From NCBI RefSeq assembly GCF_017349355.1, contig NZ_JAFMPM010000007.1, positions 62,001 through 126,000 of the forward strand: a DNA stretch of 64,000 bases. Direction: 5' to 3'. This document shows positions 16,189 to 25,516 of the stretch, piece by piece. The translations under genes were made by a program, and so were the position numbers. Source of the stretch: Thiothrix fructosivorans. GTDB taxonomy: Bacteria; Pseudomonadota; Gammaproteobacteria; Thiotrichales; Thiotrichaceae. How positions within the stretch are numbered: position 1 is the first letter of the stretch; each line of letters begins with the position of its first letter. The notes below the pieces were generated by a model. The model saw nothing but the letters and a program-made list of their open reading frames with translations, searched no databases and had not been told where the DNA came from.

Positions 16189-17133
16189 ATGGGTAATTTT
16201 CAGACAATAGGTTCAAAAGCAGATGGACTTAGCGAAAACGTTCAGCGATTTGTGGTTGAAGCGACCAGTGCTGCAACGCGGCGTGCCTACCGTATTGATG
16301 TGAAAATATTTGCAGCATGGTGCGAAGAAAGGGGAGTGTTGGCGATTCCTGCTACAGCGATGACGATTGCAGATTTTTTAGCAAGTCAAGCGCAAGCGGG
16401 TATTTCCCCCTCGACATTAAACAGACGCATTGCTGCGATTCGTTATGCGCATGAAGTAGCAGGGTATGAAACACCGACGACTAACAAATTGGTTAGCATT
16501 ACCTTAAAAGGGATTCGACGCTCGAACAGAATACGTACCCGCAAAAAAGCGGCAGCCACAGTGGATAAGATTTATCAGATGATAGCGCATTGCAATACTC
16601 AAACGTTGCAGGGCAAGCGCGACAAGCTAGTACTGATTTTAGGGTTTGCGGGTGCGTTTCGGCGTTCCGAGTTAGTAGCCCTAACGGTTGCTGATATTCA
16701 GGAAGTCCCTGACGGACTAAAAGTCTTGATACAGAAATCGAAAACAGACCAAGAGGGTACAGGGCATACGATTGCCATTTTGAATGGGCGTTTAAATGTA
16801 GTCGGTGTTCTGCAAGATTATTTGAAAACAGCGAACCTTACTGAAGGTGCTATTTTCAGACCGATCACTAAATACGGAAAAATTCGCAAACAAACCTTAA
16901 GTGACCGTTCTATTGCGGACATTGTAAAACGTTATGCAACGGCAGCAGGCCTGAATGCAGAAGACTTTAGCGCACACAGTTTACGTTCAGGCTTCATTAC
17001 CACTGCTGCGGAAGCAGGTGCTAATTTATTTAAAATAATGGATATATCGCGTCATAAATCTGTACAGACTGTACAAGGCTATGTGCGGAATGCAGAACTC
17101 TTCAAAAACCATGCAGGCAATAGTTTTCTCTGA
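16189..17133 (+). CDS. tyrosine recombinase / phage-type integrase
   Basis: 314 aa. The N-terminal SAM-like DNA-binding domain (about 20-110, including [17 protein letters not shown]) is followed by the catalytic domain. The catalytic set can be placed: Arg in [11 protein letters not shown] (about 158), Lys185 in QKSKTD, H263 and R266 in HSLRSGF, H289 in SRHKS, and the nucleophile Y298 in GYVRNAELF. All are present, so the enzyme should be active. It follows the DUF3987 gene after 166 AT-rich bases and ends at a strong hairpin. It is not the host XerC/XerD by its context, and may serve the island it lies in. No clear attachment repeats were found around it. Confidence 0.88.
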
Positions 17134-21768: not shown

Positions 21769-22191
21769 ATGAACGAAGTACTGGAATACCTGTTTTTTAC
21801 CCAAAGCACCGCTGATAAGTTTATTGCGGCGTTGCAAGCGCATGATTTGCACTTTGAACGTGAAATCGAGTCAGTGCAAGGCGCGATTGTATTGAAAATA
21901 GCCGAAGGTGTGGATGATGATCTATGGGACACGTTAGATGAGCTATACGACGAACTCAGCGAAGCAGATCAAGCGTTGGTAGAAGCGGGGCTTGAAGATG
22001 ATGAAGAATCAAAGAGCACTGCTGGTATCTACCTCCAATTAGCAGGTGGTCATCAAACTATTGCGCAAGTAGATCCAGATGTTATGAGTCGAATGCTAAA
22101 GGTCATTACTACCGATGAGCTGAATAGCTTTGTAGACACGATTGTACGTAGTGTCGAAACACCGGATGATTCACCCATCTGCAAGCGTTAA
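21769..22191 (+). CDS. small acidic protein of unknown function
   Basis: 140 aa, acidic, with a segment of D/E-rich residues around VDDDLWDTLDELYDELSEA (about 47-66) and no Cys pairs, membrane segment or signal. The good reading frame, the close position after the SDR gene (12 bases) and gene-like codon use support it as real. I do not recognise a domain. It is the last chromosomal gene before the dif-like site at 22238. Confidence 0.65.
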   Translation: MNEVLEYLFFTQSTADKFIAALQAHDLHFEREIESVQGAIVLKIAEGVDDDLWDTLDELYDELSEADQALVEAGLEDDEESKSTAGIYLQLAGGHQTIAQVDPDVMSRMLKVITTDELNSFVDTIVRSVETPDDSPICKR

Positions 22192-22237: not shown

Positions 22238-22265
22238 AATTGACATAATATGTATTATGCGAAAT
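22238..22265. other. left attachment site, dif-like
   Basis: XerD-side arm AATTGACATAA (22238-22248), centre TATGTA (22249-22254), XerC-side arm TTATGCGAAAT (22255-22265). Read on the minus strand, 21 of 28 positions match E. coli dif as I remember it. The XerC arm fits the gammaproteobacterial consensus RNTKCGCATAA exactly. This could be the host dif half-joined to the element. The first gene of the element starts inside the XerC arm (ATG at 22257). Confidence 0.75.
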
Positions 22266-22529
22266 AGAGAATTACCAACATCTTGGAAAGATTGGACTTT
22301 TTGGGAAGGCTATTTGCTTGACCCAGAGGGAAATCGTTACAGCCCCGACATGGTGCGAACCTCCCTGTTCACGCAAGAACTAGCCCACGAGCTAACCGGA
22401 AGCCCCTTGCAGGTGTACAGCATGAAAGCGCAACTTCAGAAGCGCCTGAAGCTACTGGCAGCCGAGCCGGAAGTCGTTATCCGCTGGAATGGGCAGGAGA
22501 TCACCGTGAAGCTACCCAAAGCAGGCTAA
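22257..22529 (+). CDS. small element-borne protein (DUF3653-like resemblance), unknown function
   Basis: 90 aa from ATG 22257, which lies within the XerC arm of the left site; a longer frame reaches back to 22206 across the site but has no conserved look. The start SWKDWTFWEGYLLDPEGNRYSP recalls the short phage proteins grouped as DUF3653, seen in filamentous phages of Xanthomonas. This is a resemblance, not a firm call. The rest is helical and charged (KAQLQKRLKLL). No ribosome site is obvious. In the circular form the upstream DNA would be the right end of the element, so its promoter depends on whether the element is integrated. It is convergent with the other two element genes and might be a regulator. 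Confidence 0.55.
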   Translation: MRNRELPTSWKDWTFWEGYLLDPEGNRYSPDMVRTSLFTQELAHELTGSPLQVYSMKAQLQKRLKLLAAEPEVVIRWNGQEITVKLPKAG

Positions 22530-22530
22530 A

Positions 22531-22546
22531 TTACACAGATGTGTAA
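22531..22546. repeat. copy 1 of the ACAGRYGT hairpin family
   Basis: TTACAC-AGAT-GTGTAA, a 6-base perfect stem with the same ACAG(A/G)(C/T)GT core as four hairpins near the right end of the element. It begins directly after the stop of the 90-aa gene. Confidence 0.7.
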
Positions 22547-22550
22547 CGAT

Positions 22551-22572
22551 GGAAGTTAACCTTTTAACTTCC
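22551..22572. terminator. bidirectional hairpin between converging element genes
   Basis: GGAAGTTAA (22551-22559) and TTAACTTCC (22564-22572) form a perfect 9-base stem with a CCTT loop. The right arm includes the stop codon of the minus-strand gene at 22564. It is well placed to end both converging transcripts. Confidence 0.65.
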
Positions 22573-22905
22573 AAACCGTAGCAGCTTGTATGCCCTCTTT
22601 TCATCTTCCAGATCAACGACCAATACGCCGCCCTCTGCGATCTTCAGCGCCGATAACCACGCCTTCTTAGTTCCCAAGCCGTAACGCGGGAACGTTGGAG
22701 CGTTCACCCAAAGCAATTGGCTATGATCGGAGGACACCGGAACGGCAAAACGCCTAGCGTGCTGGTAGTCCACCAACTGATAGAACGATTCACGCGGGTA
22801 CTGAAACAAACGCGCTACCATCCGTTCATTGTGCTGGAGAGCATGAACGCCATAGGAGAACGGGATAGACTGGCAGTCATCCCACAGGGCAATACTTTTT
22901 GACAT
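22564..22905 (-). CDS. small element-borne protein of unknown function
   Basis: 113 aa from ATG 22905, 17 bases after the stop of the initiator gene; a GGGG stretch precedes it. A longer frame to 22938 would overlap the initiator. The protein is soluble, with aromatic-rich segments (FPRYGLGTKKAWLSAL, then a run ending VVDLEDEKRAYKLLRFG). By position, directly downstream of a rolling-circle initiator, and by size it could take the place of a single-stranded DNA-binding protein. No motif proves this and I do not recognise the family. Confidence 0.6.
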   Translation of the reverse strand: MSKSIALWDDCQSIPFSYGVHALQHNERMVARLFQYPRESFYQLVDYQHARRFAVPVSSDHSQLLWVNAPTFPRYGLGTKKAWLSALKIAEGGVLVVDLEDEKRAYKLLRFGS

Positions 22906-22922
22906 ACTCAGAACCCCAAGGC

Positions 22923-23978
22923 TTAGAACGGTGTCCACTTCACAAAAGCCATGATGTCGGAAAGCTCAACCGCTCCGCCCCACATCACCGTAGACACGAA
23001 AGTTTTTTGCAGCCAGTAAGCCTGTTTAGCCCGATCGTCAAAGGAACACCGAAAGTTATTCACCAAATCCTTAGTGACCTTGCCGCAATGCGAGCCATGA
23101 CCGACCACAAAGCGCCACACGGGACGAATAGCGCCGAACATACCCCAGAACCGCCCCACGTTAGCATAGTCGGCAGGAACGTCTTTCTGTTCCTGTTTAG
23201 CTGCGTACTTGGTAGCGTAGTAGCTGGCAACGTGAGGTTTACGGACGTATTCCAAACAGGAACGCCCCGACAATTGCCCCAAGTGCCAAGCCAAATGTTT
23301 TGGATCACGAGAACCAACAATCCGAAACCATGCCTTAGCGACGGCTTGAACGCCGCCTAGTGGGTAGCTGGACAGAAACAAGTGATAGTGAGGTGCACCA
23401 CGTTTCTGGAACTCTAAGAACCAGAATGCGCCGATACCCCGCCGTTTTAACCACTTGCGGAATACTGACAAATCGCGCTTAACCTTCAGCCCGTCAGTAG
23501 GGAAATCATCGGGATAGGTAAGCGTGACAAACGCCTGAAAAGCCCCTTCAGGAACGTTACGGGAAGCTAGCTTCATACGCTTGATGGAAGCCTTGGAAAG
23601 CCGGGTGATCTTCCCCCTCTTCCCACCGCCCGCATGATTTGGAATCGCCCCGCCGCTAATCTTGTGTTTCACAACCACATCCTGAGAACCGATTTGTAAC
23701 GTGACCGTTTCACCACAGAAAGCAACAGGTTCATGACCGGCAATGAAGCCAACAGGCTTAGGAAGTTGTAACTCACGAGGTCTAGATAACCGAGAAACGA
23801 CCCATTCGTCGATCTCAGCTTCACACTGACTAACAGCATTTGAACCAAAAACAGCGTTACGAAACCAACGCCGCCCTGACTCAAAGTCGAAGAACACATT
23901 GCCATCAGCAGCGGCAAGCAGTGCGGTAAAGCCATCAAACGCATTGCCAGCGGCAACGCTAGGGGGTATATTTTCCAT
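22923..23978 (-). CDS. rolling-circle replication initiator (HUH endonuclease)
   Basis: 351 aa. Motif 1 FVTLTYP is at residues 150-156. Motif 2, the metal-binding HUH, is APHYHLFL (H197 and H199). Motif 3 YYATKYAAK (Y253/Y254, K257) supplies the nicking tyrosine and lysine. The spacing is that of initiators of filamentous phages and small rolling-circle plasmids. The enzyme should nick the plus origin of the element and start strand-displacement synthesis with host enzymes. N-terminal 140 residues show no recognised domain. Upstream is a long leader with two overlapping hairpins. It is first in a two-gene minus-strand unit. ATG 23978 has AGAGA about 8 bases upstream. Confidence 0.88.
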   Translation of the reverse strand: MENIPPSVAAGNAFDGFTALLAAADGNVFFDFESGRRWFRNAVFGSNAVSQCEAEIDEWVVSRLSRPRELQLPKPVGFIAGHEPVAFCGETVTLQIGSQDVVVKHKISGGAIPNHAGGGKRGKITRLSKASIKRMKLASRNVPEGAFQAFVTLTYPDDFPTDGLKVKRDLSVFRKWLKRRGIGAFWFLEFQKRGAPHYHLFLSSYPLGGVQAVAKAWFRIVGSRDPKHLAWHLGQLSGRSCLEYVRKPHVASYYATKYAAKQEQKDVPADYANVGRFWGMFGAIRPVWRFVVGHGSHCGKVTKDLVNNFRCSFDDRAKQAYWLQKTFVSTVMWGGAVELSDIMAFVKWTPF

Positions 23979-24002
23979 CGTTAAGTCTCTTGTTCAAGAA
24001 GA

Positions 24003-24046
24003 GCCTTGGCGTCCCAAGGCGGTGTAATTTGTAGTTACATCGCCTT
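24003..24046 (-). promoter_or_regulatory. initiator leader: two mutually exclusive hairpins
   Basis: Directly upstream of the initiator ATG (23978), stem A pairs GCCTTGG (24003-24009) with CCAAGGC (24014-24020). Stem B pairs AAGGCGGTGTAA (24016-24027) with TTACATCGCCTT (24035-24046), with one G-T style mismatch. They share bases 24016-24020, so only one can form at a time, as in attenuators of copy-number control. On the plus strand stem B is followed by ACTTTTTTC, so it could also end a short antisense RNA. This is structure seen by eye only. Confidence 0.5.
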
Positions 24047-24320
24047 ACTTTTTTCTGGTCAGGTTGGCTTACCTGAAATACTGCACAGCCAAGAGTGCAA
24101 TACCCAGAATATCCATTCAGATATTCCGCCTAGAATGTTAACGCACCGATTTTCAATTGATTATAAAGTAATCACCTGAATTGACTGTTTTCTAATTCGC
24201 TGGGAGTCACCCGAAAAGCGGATTTATTGCGTTAATAAACCTTAGTTCAGCCTTTATTCACGCGCAACACGCAAACCGACAAACGGTTAAAGAATGTTCA
24301 ATTTTAGGTCACAAAGTTCC

Positions 24321-24412
24321 TAGATAGCTTGTATTTTACCCTTCGGTCTCATTTGTGCCTTATGACTAGATAGCTTGTATTTTACCCTTCGGTCTCATTT
24401 GTGCCTTATGAC
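24321..24412. repeat. perfect 46-base tandem repeat, two copies
   Basis: The unit starts TAGATAGCTTGTATTTTACC and ends TTTGTGCCTTATGAC; copies are at 24321-24366 and 24367-24412 without a difference. It lies about 340 bases upstream of the initiator gene and may be iterons bound by the initiator or a recent duplication. Confidence 0.9.
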
Positions 24413-24424
24413 AAGAAGAGGGGG

Positions 24425-24491
24425 AAGTCAGCCACCCTACCCCCTTCCTCCTCCGTTGGCACGTCGTCGTCTGGTGTAGGGCTGCTGACTT
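24425..24491. repeat. long imperfect inverted repeat
   Basis: AAGTCAGCCACCCTAC (24425-24440) and GTAGGGCTGCTGACTT (24476-24491) pair at 14 of 16 positions across a 35-base pyrimidine-rich loop, followed by TTTT on the plus strand. It could be a packaging-signal or origin hairpin, or a terminator. Confidence 0.6.
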
Positions 24492-24863
24492 TTTGCTCTT
24501 TTCGTATCTCATAACGAAACAATCCGACGAACGGTAAAGCGCTAAATCATGCCTTTTAACCTCACGCGCCCTTCGGCTTGTGCAAGAGGCTTTCAGGGGG
24601 AGGTGAGGTTTTGCAGCTATCGCTAACGACCACTAACCGCCCGATGCCTGACATCTCTTCGATTAGCCATCACAGCCCCCGCCGTGGGTGTCAGGGGATT
24701 ACGCAGCGGCTTTCGCCGGATTCCGCGAGGCAGGGCTTACTGGTACTACAACGTTTTGCGTGTCGCTTGCGTGGCTACGCCACCAAGAGGCGCACCCCTT
24801 ACGCATTGTGGGCAGGGTTGAAGGGATAAGCGGATTTTGAATTCTGTTACAACAATCAAAAAG

Positions 24864-25030
24864 GTCTACAGGTGTAGACTGGCAACGATCAGGCAGCAAG
24901 CGCGGTCGGCTGTTCCGCAAGCTCCACCCGCCGCCGCGCTTGCTACCTCTCACTTGGAGAAAATACGACATTCTACAGACGTAGAATCATGGTAAAACTC
25001 ACAGGCGTGAGCAGTTCACAGACGTGAACT
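24864..25030. repeat. four hairpins of the ACAGRYGT family
   Basis: Copies: GTCTAC-AGGT-GTAGAC (24864-24879), ATTCTAC-AGAC-GTAGAAT (24970-24987), CTCAC-AGGC-GTGAG (24998-25011), AGTTCAC-AGAC-GTGAACT (25013-25030). All have the core ACAG(A/G)(C/T)GT, with the next stem bases different but complementary in each copy. A fifth copy is at 22531. In the circular form all five lie within about 300 bases of the attachment site. Confidence 0.75.
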
Positions 25031-25056
25031 AAAACCCCATGAACAACCCGCAAGTG

Positions 25057-25084
25057 ATTGACTCCACTATGTATTATGCGTAGT
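25057..25084. other. right attachment site, dif-like with a degenerate XerD arm
   Basis: XerD-side arm ATTGACTCCAC (25057-25067), centre TATGTA (25068-25073), XerC-side arm TTATGCGTAGT (25074-25084). The centre and first seven bases of the XerC arm are identical to the left site; the XerD arm is poor. A degenerate arm on the element side is known for phages that integrate through Xer. If the arms were exchanged at the centre, the empty host site would have arms AATTGACATAA and TTATGCGTAGT. Confidence 0.7.
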
Positions 25085-25140: not shown

Positions 25141-25503
25141 TCAGTACGCCGGATTGGCGGCAGGTTGTTTGCTAAGATCACCTAGCATCTCTTCAATGAA
25201 TTGTTTGACGCGAAAGCGGTGTTCACCCATGAATTGCAAACCGACACCGGGGCTAGTACCACGTTGACCGACACCGGGGGAAATCCACACCACTCGTCCC
25301 GGAATCAACAGCTTCTTCCCGTCTTCGACCAAGCGCAAATGCAATACCACTTCGTCATGTAAGCTAAATTTGTCCGTGGTGGGTACAAACAAACCCCCAT
25401 CTTTAATAAAGGGCATGTAACACGCTTGCAACGCAGATTTTTCGACAATAGCCATCGATAAGCTGACAGGTGTACTCTTCGGTTGCTGCGGGGTATCGTC
25501 CAT
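25141..25503 (-). CDS. pilZ: PilZ-domain protein of the type IV pilus type
   Basis: 120 aa from ATG 25503, which has AGAG 7 bases upstream; ATG 25509 would be too close to it. The body matches the short PilZ proteins (LHDEVVLHLRLVEDGKKLLIPGR, VVWISPGVG, GVGLQF) found after holB in many gammaproteobacteria, which are needed for type IV pilus assembly. As in those, the N-terminal RxxxR c-di-GMP-binding motif of true PilZ receptors is not seen. It ends the fab-pab-mltG-tmk-holB cluster and its 3' end is about 55 bases from the dif-integrated element. Confidence 0.85.
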   Translation of the reverse strand: MDDTPQQPKSTPVSLSMAIVEKSALQACYMPFIKDGGLFVPTTDKFSLHDEVVLHLRLVEDGKKLLIPGRVVWISPGVGQRGTSPGVGLQFMGEHRFRVKQFIEEMLGDLSKQPAANPAY

Positions 25504-25516
25504 TATCATTCTCTAA

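Follow-up and report, generated by a model that had tools for sequence, protein, structure and literature searches.

Features of the locus

The stretch of DNA analysed here, a window of 64,000 nucleotides from Thiothrix fructosivorans (contig NZ_JAFMPM010000007.1), contains a compact element with a rolling-circle initiator, which sits in the host's chromosome-dimer resolution site dif and appears to enter it through the host's own XerC and XerD, perhaps with the help of a small activator protein that it encodes. In an exact-match search of the window, the sequence TATGTATTATGCG was found at exactly two places (22249-22261 and 25068-25080), which confirms the two sites at a spacing of 2819 bases described in an initial annotation. 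The left junction (22238-22265, forward strand) comprises an intact dif, AATTGACATAA TATGTA TTATGCGAAAT, consisting of an XerD-like arm (22238-22248), the centre (22249-22254) and an XerC-like arm (22255-22265). A hand count against the dif of E. coli gave 21 matches in 28 positions, the same figure as reported initially. The right junction (25057-25084, forward strand), ATTGACTCCAC TATGTA TTATGCGTAGT, keeps the centre (25068-25073) and an XerC-like arm of chromosomal origin (25074-25084), while the arm at the XerD position (25057-25067) stems from the element and is degenerate. The poor quality already ascribed to this arm was reflected by only 3 matches in 11 positions compared to the left XerD arm, a level that is reached by 54% of the 11-mers in the window.

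Between the junctions, a gene on the reverse strand (22923-23978) encodes an initiator of 351 amino acids (Rep), which matches Pfam REP_ORF2-G2P (3.2e-12) and the PHROG family of rolling-circle initiation (1.2e-8). The residues which we take to be its HUH motif (His197, His199) and its tyrosine motif (Tyr254, Tyr258) are invariant in all four elements of this kind found in the genus, and the Rep proteins of the three relatives' elements show 58-65% identity to that of the window. Thus the HUH initiator proposed in the initial annotation is borne out by family match and motifs. Both small genes noted alongside it are also present, although the activator-like identity of one of them had been missed. 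This gene (22257-22529, forward strand) encodes a protein of 90 amino acids, counted from an ATG inside the XerC arm, which matches DUF3653, a family to which XafT, the Xer activation factor of the satellite TLCphi, is linked, and is a candidate XafT-like Xer activation factor. The other (22564-22905, reverse strand) is an open reading frame (ORF) of 113 amino acids from ATG, or extending to 22938 from GTG, which lies close to or overlaps the end of rep; it matched no family in Pfam, PHROGs or NCBIfam, and its homologues in the three relatives' elements show 28-34% identity. In agreement with the first reading of the locus, no recombinase was found among the scanned ORFs inside the element. 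Likewise, scans of it with Pfam and PHROGs recognised neither an integrase nor a coat or assembly gene, one ORF remaining without a family.

Identity of the dif site

The repeat alone is no proof of an element. With up to two mismatches, TATGTATTATGCG still occurs at two places in the window, and since shuffled sequences contain 1.83 such places on average, this number carries no weight by itself. The case for an insertion is comparative and rests on loci of the genus that are empty with a single site or filled with two.

That the left site is the dif of the host is nevertheless clear from several lines of evidence which agree with each other. In the genome of 4.36 Mb (8 contigs), the 22-base dif core, of which 20 bases are specified, is matched without mismatch at the left site alone; elsewhere in the genome a single place was found within three mismatches, and this place has three. 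The maximum of the cumulative GC skew lies at about 16-18 kb of the window, 4-5 kb to the left of the left site. The motif GGGNAGGG, the E. coli consensus of the FtsK-orienting polar sequences (KOPS), converges on the site: it lies on the forward strand at all 6 places to the left of the element and on the reverse strand at all 12 places to the right, with one copy per strand inside the element. The genome encodes XerC (367.8 bits; cut-off 335.15), XerD (392.9 bits; cut-off 329.6) and an FtsK-gamma domain above its cut-off; among 14 control genomes, the XerD model gave a signal in all 14 and exceeded its cut-off in 4, and the FtsK-gamma model gave a signal in 8. Thus neither a better dif elsewhere near the skew minimum nor a genome devoid of XerC and XerD, two of the findings named beforehand as speaking against an element in dif, was encountered.

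Empty and occupied loci in the genus

The locus is flanked by two chromosomal genes, a conserved hypothetical gene (hyp140; 21769-22191, forward strand) on the left and a PilZ-domain gene (25141-25509, reverse strand) on the right, beyond which follow what are presumably holB, tmk, mltG and pabC, named by us from their translations. We compared the locus beside hyp140 in 16 genomes of the genus, counting the genome of the window (G000) among the carriers of a small element. A dif match within three mismatches was found in 13 of them. Six of these show an empty locus with a single dif (G006, G007, G009, G010, G012 and G015), four contain a small homologous element (G000 with 2819, G003 with 2613, G004 with 3037 and G013 with 2616 bases) and two a filamentous prophage (G001 with 8715 and G002 with 8976 bases), while in G014 the contig ends about 1 kb or less from the locus. 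In G005, which is also empty, the dif-like site is four mismatches away, bringing the empty loci to 7 of 16. For G008 the right flank was not found in the fetched stretch. In G011, a gap of about 70 bases separates the PilZ gene and hyp140 (L060, 7127-7197), with neither a recognisable dif nor an element; its dif may have moved or may have been lost in the draft assembly.

The edges of the empty and the occupied loci coincide. This is clearest for the pair of G009 (empty) and G001 (with an insert of 8.7 kb), whose outer flanks are near-identical up to the core over about 100 and about 120 bases. The right flank of the G003 element is close to the empty site of G010. The initial annotation had predicted that relatives lacking the element would show an intact dif with the arms AATTGACATAA and TTATGCGTAGT; exactly these arms, as expected for attB, are found at the empty site of G015. 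Relatives with both sites and nothing in between, which would have spoken against an insertion, were not seen among those examined. A chance repeat, i.e. two unrelated 13-mers around ordinary chromosomal genes, would fit the lack of significance of two such 13-mers per window at two mismatches, but since the genus contains empty and filled alleles with the same edges, this explanation has next to no probability and was rejected.

All six inserts with both ends located have retained the centre and the XerC arm at the far site, while the arm at the XerD position is degenerate, matching the host's own arm at 3, 3, 5, 6, 4 and 5 of 11 positions. In three of the four small elements this arm contains TTGAC, displaced outwards by one base compared to dif, and in the fourth it contains TTTAC; given the small numbers, the displaced TTGAC may serve as a lead only.

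Taken together, the comparison shows a precise insertion into the host dif, by which dif was rebuilt at one end. Since the junctions are precise, integration was probably mediated by Xer: the element has no recognised integrase of its own and the host possesses XerC and XerD. A different enzyme would be the tyrosine recombinase encoded about 5 kb to the left (16189-17133), which is close by and weakly XerD-like (84.9 bits; cut-off 329.6). However, it lies outside the element, beside aspS, and of 12 dif regions only three, all of them empty (G006, G009 and G015), contain a homologue, which occupies the corresponding position; it was not found in the element-bearing regions of G003, G004 and G013, nor in other empty ones. 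Integration by this enzyme instead of XerC and XerD is therefore disfavoured as very improbable. Beside aspS, the segment 14727-17133 of the window comprises this recombinase together with an ORF of 431 amino acids.

Some observations suggest that elements come and go at this site. The DUF3653 protein of the window is 72% identical to those of both G003 and G004, while the PilZ proteins show 63% and 90% identity, respectively. For both DUF3653 and Rep, the distance from the protein encoded in the window is the same whether the host is a closer or a more distant one. The genes of the element thus do not track host divergence. A stretch of about 45 bases to the right of the far site of G004, and likewise in the empty site of G012, shows 0-1 differences to the 5' end of the DUF3653 gene of G004 and is best interpreted as a scar left by an earlier element that has since been deleted; the two scar loci are L031 and L035, one empty and one occupied. 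Since a further DUF3653 fragment lies beyond the far site in G013, dif looks to have been used repeatedly. In G001 and G009 (L038, L039), dif is inverted relative to hyp140 and PilZ compared to most other genomes of the genus, and the inverted dif of G001 still hosts a prophage. In G014 (L033, 8521-8820), a DUF3653-like gene with an internal stop adjoins dif on the opposite strand near the contig end.

The DUF3653 gene and its distribution

The DUF3653 gene adjoins dif not only in the element but also in both filamentous phages (inoviruses) of the genus, G001 and G002. Its frame is open further upstream, from 22170, as it is in the relatives, and no ribosome-binding site was identified for the ORF; for these two reasons the start codon given above is a likely one only. 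In three of the four small elements the XerC arm contains the likely ATG, while in G003 an in-frame ATG is found in the dif centre. The Pfam model DUF3653 matches all six aligned members of the genus, the best with 1.2e-6, and the protein of the window with 23.3 bits at a cut-off of 22.4.

In 369 genomes sampled from the class, the DUF3653 profile was found in two. The second of these is G290, from another family of the class, in which the match (L055, about 1501-1915) lies about 120 bases from a dif-like site, distance and strand being read by eye. Rep was found in 4 of 57 relatives, all in this genus, and the Rep profile in 1 of the 369 genomes, only here. Among genome contigs, Rep matched at a single distant locus, downstream of which we read a serine-recombinase-like ORF; among viral contigs it had no match. 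The only match of Rep in the phage collection was Inoviridae sp. ctULK797 (MW202783.1), a circular record of 3063 bases. Two other species of the genus are the only ones in which possible helper phages were seen. Among the titles returned by literature searches none describes such an element, which is not meant as a claim of its absence from print.

Putative origin and further features

A candidate double-strand origin, the TGTRCCTTATGACAAG block (24400-24424, forward strand), recurs outside the coding regions in each of the four small elements. Apart from the block around TTATGACAAG, no stretch was found to be common to their non-coding regions, and we propose this block as the candidate nick site. 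A tandem duplication of 46 bases (24320-24411, forward strand) runs into the origin block. About 1.1 kb of the element is without a clearly recognised ORF; two other ORFs in the non-coding part matched nothing in Pfam at an E of 1, and the one scanned against PHROGs showed a weak match of unknown function (0.037). The palindrome TTACACAGATGTGTAA (22531-22546) has similar counterparts at 24864-24879, 24971-24986 and 25014-25029 with the core ACAGRYGT. These palindromes are possible operators or iterons. As general iterons they were rejected, since only one is found in the three relatives' elements (L035) compared to four here.

Interpretation of the element

Altogether, the explanation we consider probable is that of an integrated TLCphi-like element at dif which exploits the Xer system of the host. 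The stretch from 22255 to 25073 would correspond to an integrated circle of about 2819 bases, classified as an integrative mobile element exploiting Xer (IMEX). It is filed as such and not as a satellite phage, since no assembly gene was found in the genome and the XafT subfamily score is low; possibly, the element is a satellite of the inoviruses residing at dif. The core of the initial annotation, a compact rolling-circle element in dif apparently integrated via host XerC and XerD, is supported by the junctions and by the comparison of empty and filled loci, while the DUF3653 gene, the elements of the three relatives, the two inoviruses at dif and the probable origin had been overlooked.

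In the proposed course of events, Rep would nick the conserved TTATGACAAG block, and the circle would be replicated by the rolling-circle mode. The attP of the circle would comprise a good XerC arm and the centre beside a degenerate XerD arm, and would be recombined with dif by host XerC and XerD. Since this attP has no proper XerD arm, the element would supply an activator of its own, a role that would fall to the DUF3653 protein as it does to XafT in TLCphi; the activator function is predicted by analogy. Recombination would rebuild a complete dif on the left, so that the host could keep its dimer resolution and a further element could insert. Spread in the particles of the filamentous phages that reside at dif in this genus, and that possess a related DUF3653 gene beside the same att site, has about even chances of being correct.

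Instead of a phage satellite, the element could be a plasmid-like rolling-circle element that uses Xer, perhaps with the help of DUF3653, and is transferred by natural transformation or rare mobilisation. The lack of a recognised coat or assembly gene, together with the lack of Zot-family matches in the four genomes with small elements, would fit such an element, as would the matches of Rep to two actinobacterial plasmids (34-35% over 38% of the length). On the other hand, two inoviruses of the same genus share the att site and the DUF3653 gene, and the only match of Rep in the phage collection is the record labelled Inoviridae mentioned above, of which 5 of 6 proteins were scanned and showed no PHROG or Pfam family at an E of 0.01. 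A plasmid-like nature is thus a serious possibility, albeit one we regard as somewhat less than probable. Far less can be said for a dead remnant that was fixed at dif and is no longer mobile. The 113-residue ORF evolves fast, as would be expected of a remnant, but three ORFs are open, Rep and DUF3653 appear to be under purifying selection, both junctions and the candidate origin are intact, and the occurrence is patchy, which makes a dead remnant quite improbable.

Several points weigh against the explanation as a TLCphi-like element. The assignment to DUF3653 is marginal for the protein of the window taken alone and better in the relatives, and must be called weak; when whole genomes were searched, the model also gave a signal in 2 of 14 control genomes and exceeded the cut-off in 1. 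The NCBIfam model of the VC1465 Xer activation factor matched all six proteins weakly, that of the window with 17 bits compared to a cut-off of 70, and the protein may consequently act differently or not on Xer. Its structure model was poor (predicted local distance difference test, pLDDT, of 51) and was not used. The ratios of non-synonymous to synonymous change (pN/pS) of 0.25-0.36 for DUF3653, 0.33-0.41 for Rep and 0.55-0.72 for the 113-residue ORF are rough, since pS is near saturation. The far arm of G004, with 6 of 11 matches, reaches a level shown by 3.5% of the 11-mers of the window when compared to the same arm, and the far arm is thus not pure noise. The right flank of G013 is different chromosomal DNA, with no PilZ gene in the fetched stretch. 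Finally, no Zot-family assembly gene, and hence no recognised helper, was found in any of the four genomes with small elements, the family giving a signal in 5 of the 14 control genomes.

A more far-reaching idea would be a separate lineage of minimal dif satellites with an activator gene fused to its own attachment site, switchable and self-limiting integration, and a TTGAC half-site that is proof against FtsK. With the likely start codon inside dif, integration and excision would swap the DNA upstream of the gene, which would be the end of the element in the circle and the chromosome in the integrated state, and could act as an on/off switch for the activator. The TTGAC half-site displaced by one base would be an XerD site that depends on the activator and is arranged against excision by FtsK. 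A scan for a promoter of DUF3653 that depends on the circle gave 4 promoter-like sites, compared to 3.1 (standard deviation 1.7) in shuffled sequences; none was located at the right end of the element, and one, which ends in dif, lies a short way upstream on the chromosome. The idea of a promoter swap on integration is therefore without support yet, and we consider such a lineage unlikely.

Comparison with known systems

The LME-1 element of Legionella and the gonococcal genomic island are larger islands. Both are described as inserting into dif, after which one dif is intact and the other modified, and LME-1 uses a single recombinase, XerL, the question of an activation factor being left open there (PMC9765430). 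The UPphi filamentous phages of Enterobacteriales also sit at dif, with a far repeat that typically comprises about the first fifteen dif bases; unlike the element, they are complete phages, each of about 7.5 kb, arranged in tandem, and the available text mentions no activation factor apart from a reference to the TLCphi paper (PMC7307601). Of the Xanthomonas filamentous phages, phiLf and Cf1c are placed in the TLCphi class of Xer users in a review (PMC4246890), and Cf2 shows a weak match to the DUF3653 protein of the window (E = 0.2 over 47 residues). Unlike the element, all three are full phages.

MW202783.1 is likewise a small circular genome, whose Rep is related to that of the element (34% over 47% of the protein), but it shows no DUF3653 match at an E of 1, and a loose dif pattern is matched in it only with two mismatches. 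The prophages of G001 and G002 resemble the element in the att site, in the DUF3653 gene beside the XerC side of dif and in the degenerate far XerD arm. In contrast to the element, they are more than 8 kb long, both encode an assembly ATPase of the Zot/pI family, and G001 encodes a Phage_CRI replication protein.

The closest likeness is to TLCphi, the satellite of Vibrio cholerae. As described, TLCphi integrates at dif with a dif-like XerC arm and centre beside a degenerate XerD arm, comprises a replication module without structural or morphogenesis genes (PMC4246890) and encodes the XerD-activating factor XafT (PMC9765430). Within the limits of these descriptions, the same attP architecture is seen in all six two-ended inserts of the genus, and the element likewise comprises a replication module with no recognised morphogenesis genes. 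The differences lie in the DUF3653 protein, which is far below the cut-off of the XafT subfamily, in the size of the elements (2.6-3.0 kb) and in their Rep of the REP_ORF2-G2P family, the comparison being one with TLCphi as described. Since three further copies exist, empty sites provide good controls, two phages residing at the same site are possible helpers and no more than three genes are recognised, the element offers a compact system for the questions of how recombination proceeds at a dif-like site lacking a proper XerD arm and why FtsK spares the insert. The element is a well-supported new example of a trick known best from the phages and satellites of cholera: V. cholerae has provided the best-described satellites that rely on Xer and encode an Xer activator themselves, and the element appears to represent a second, divergent family of that kind in another genus.

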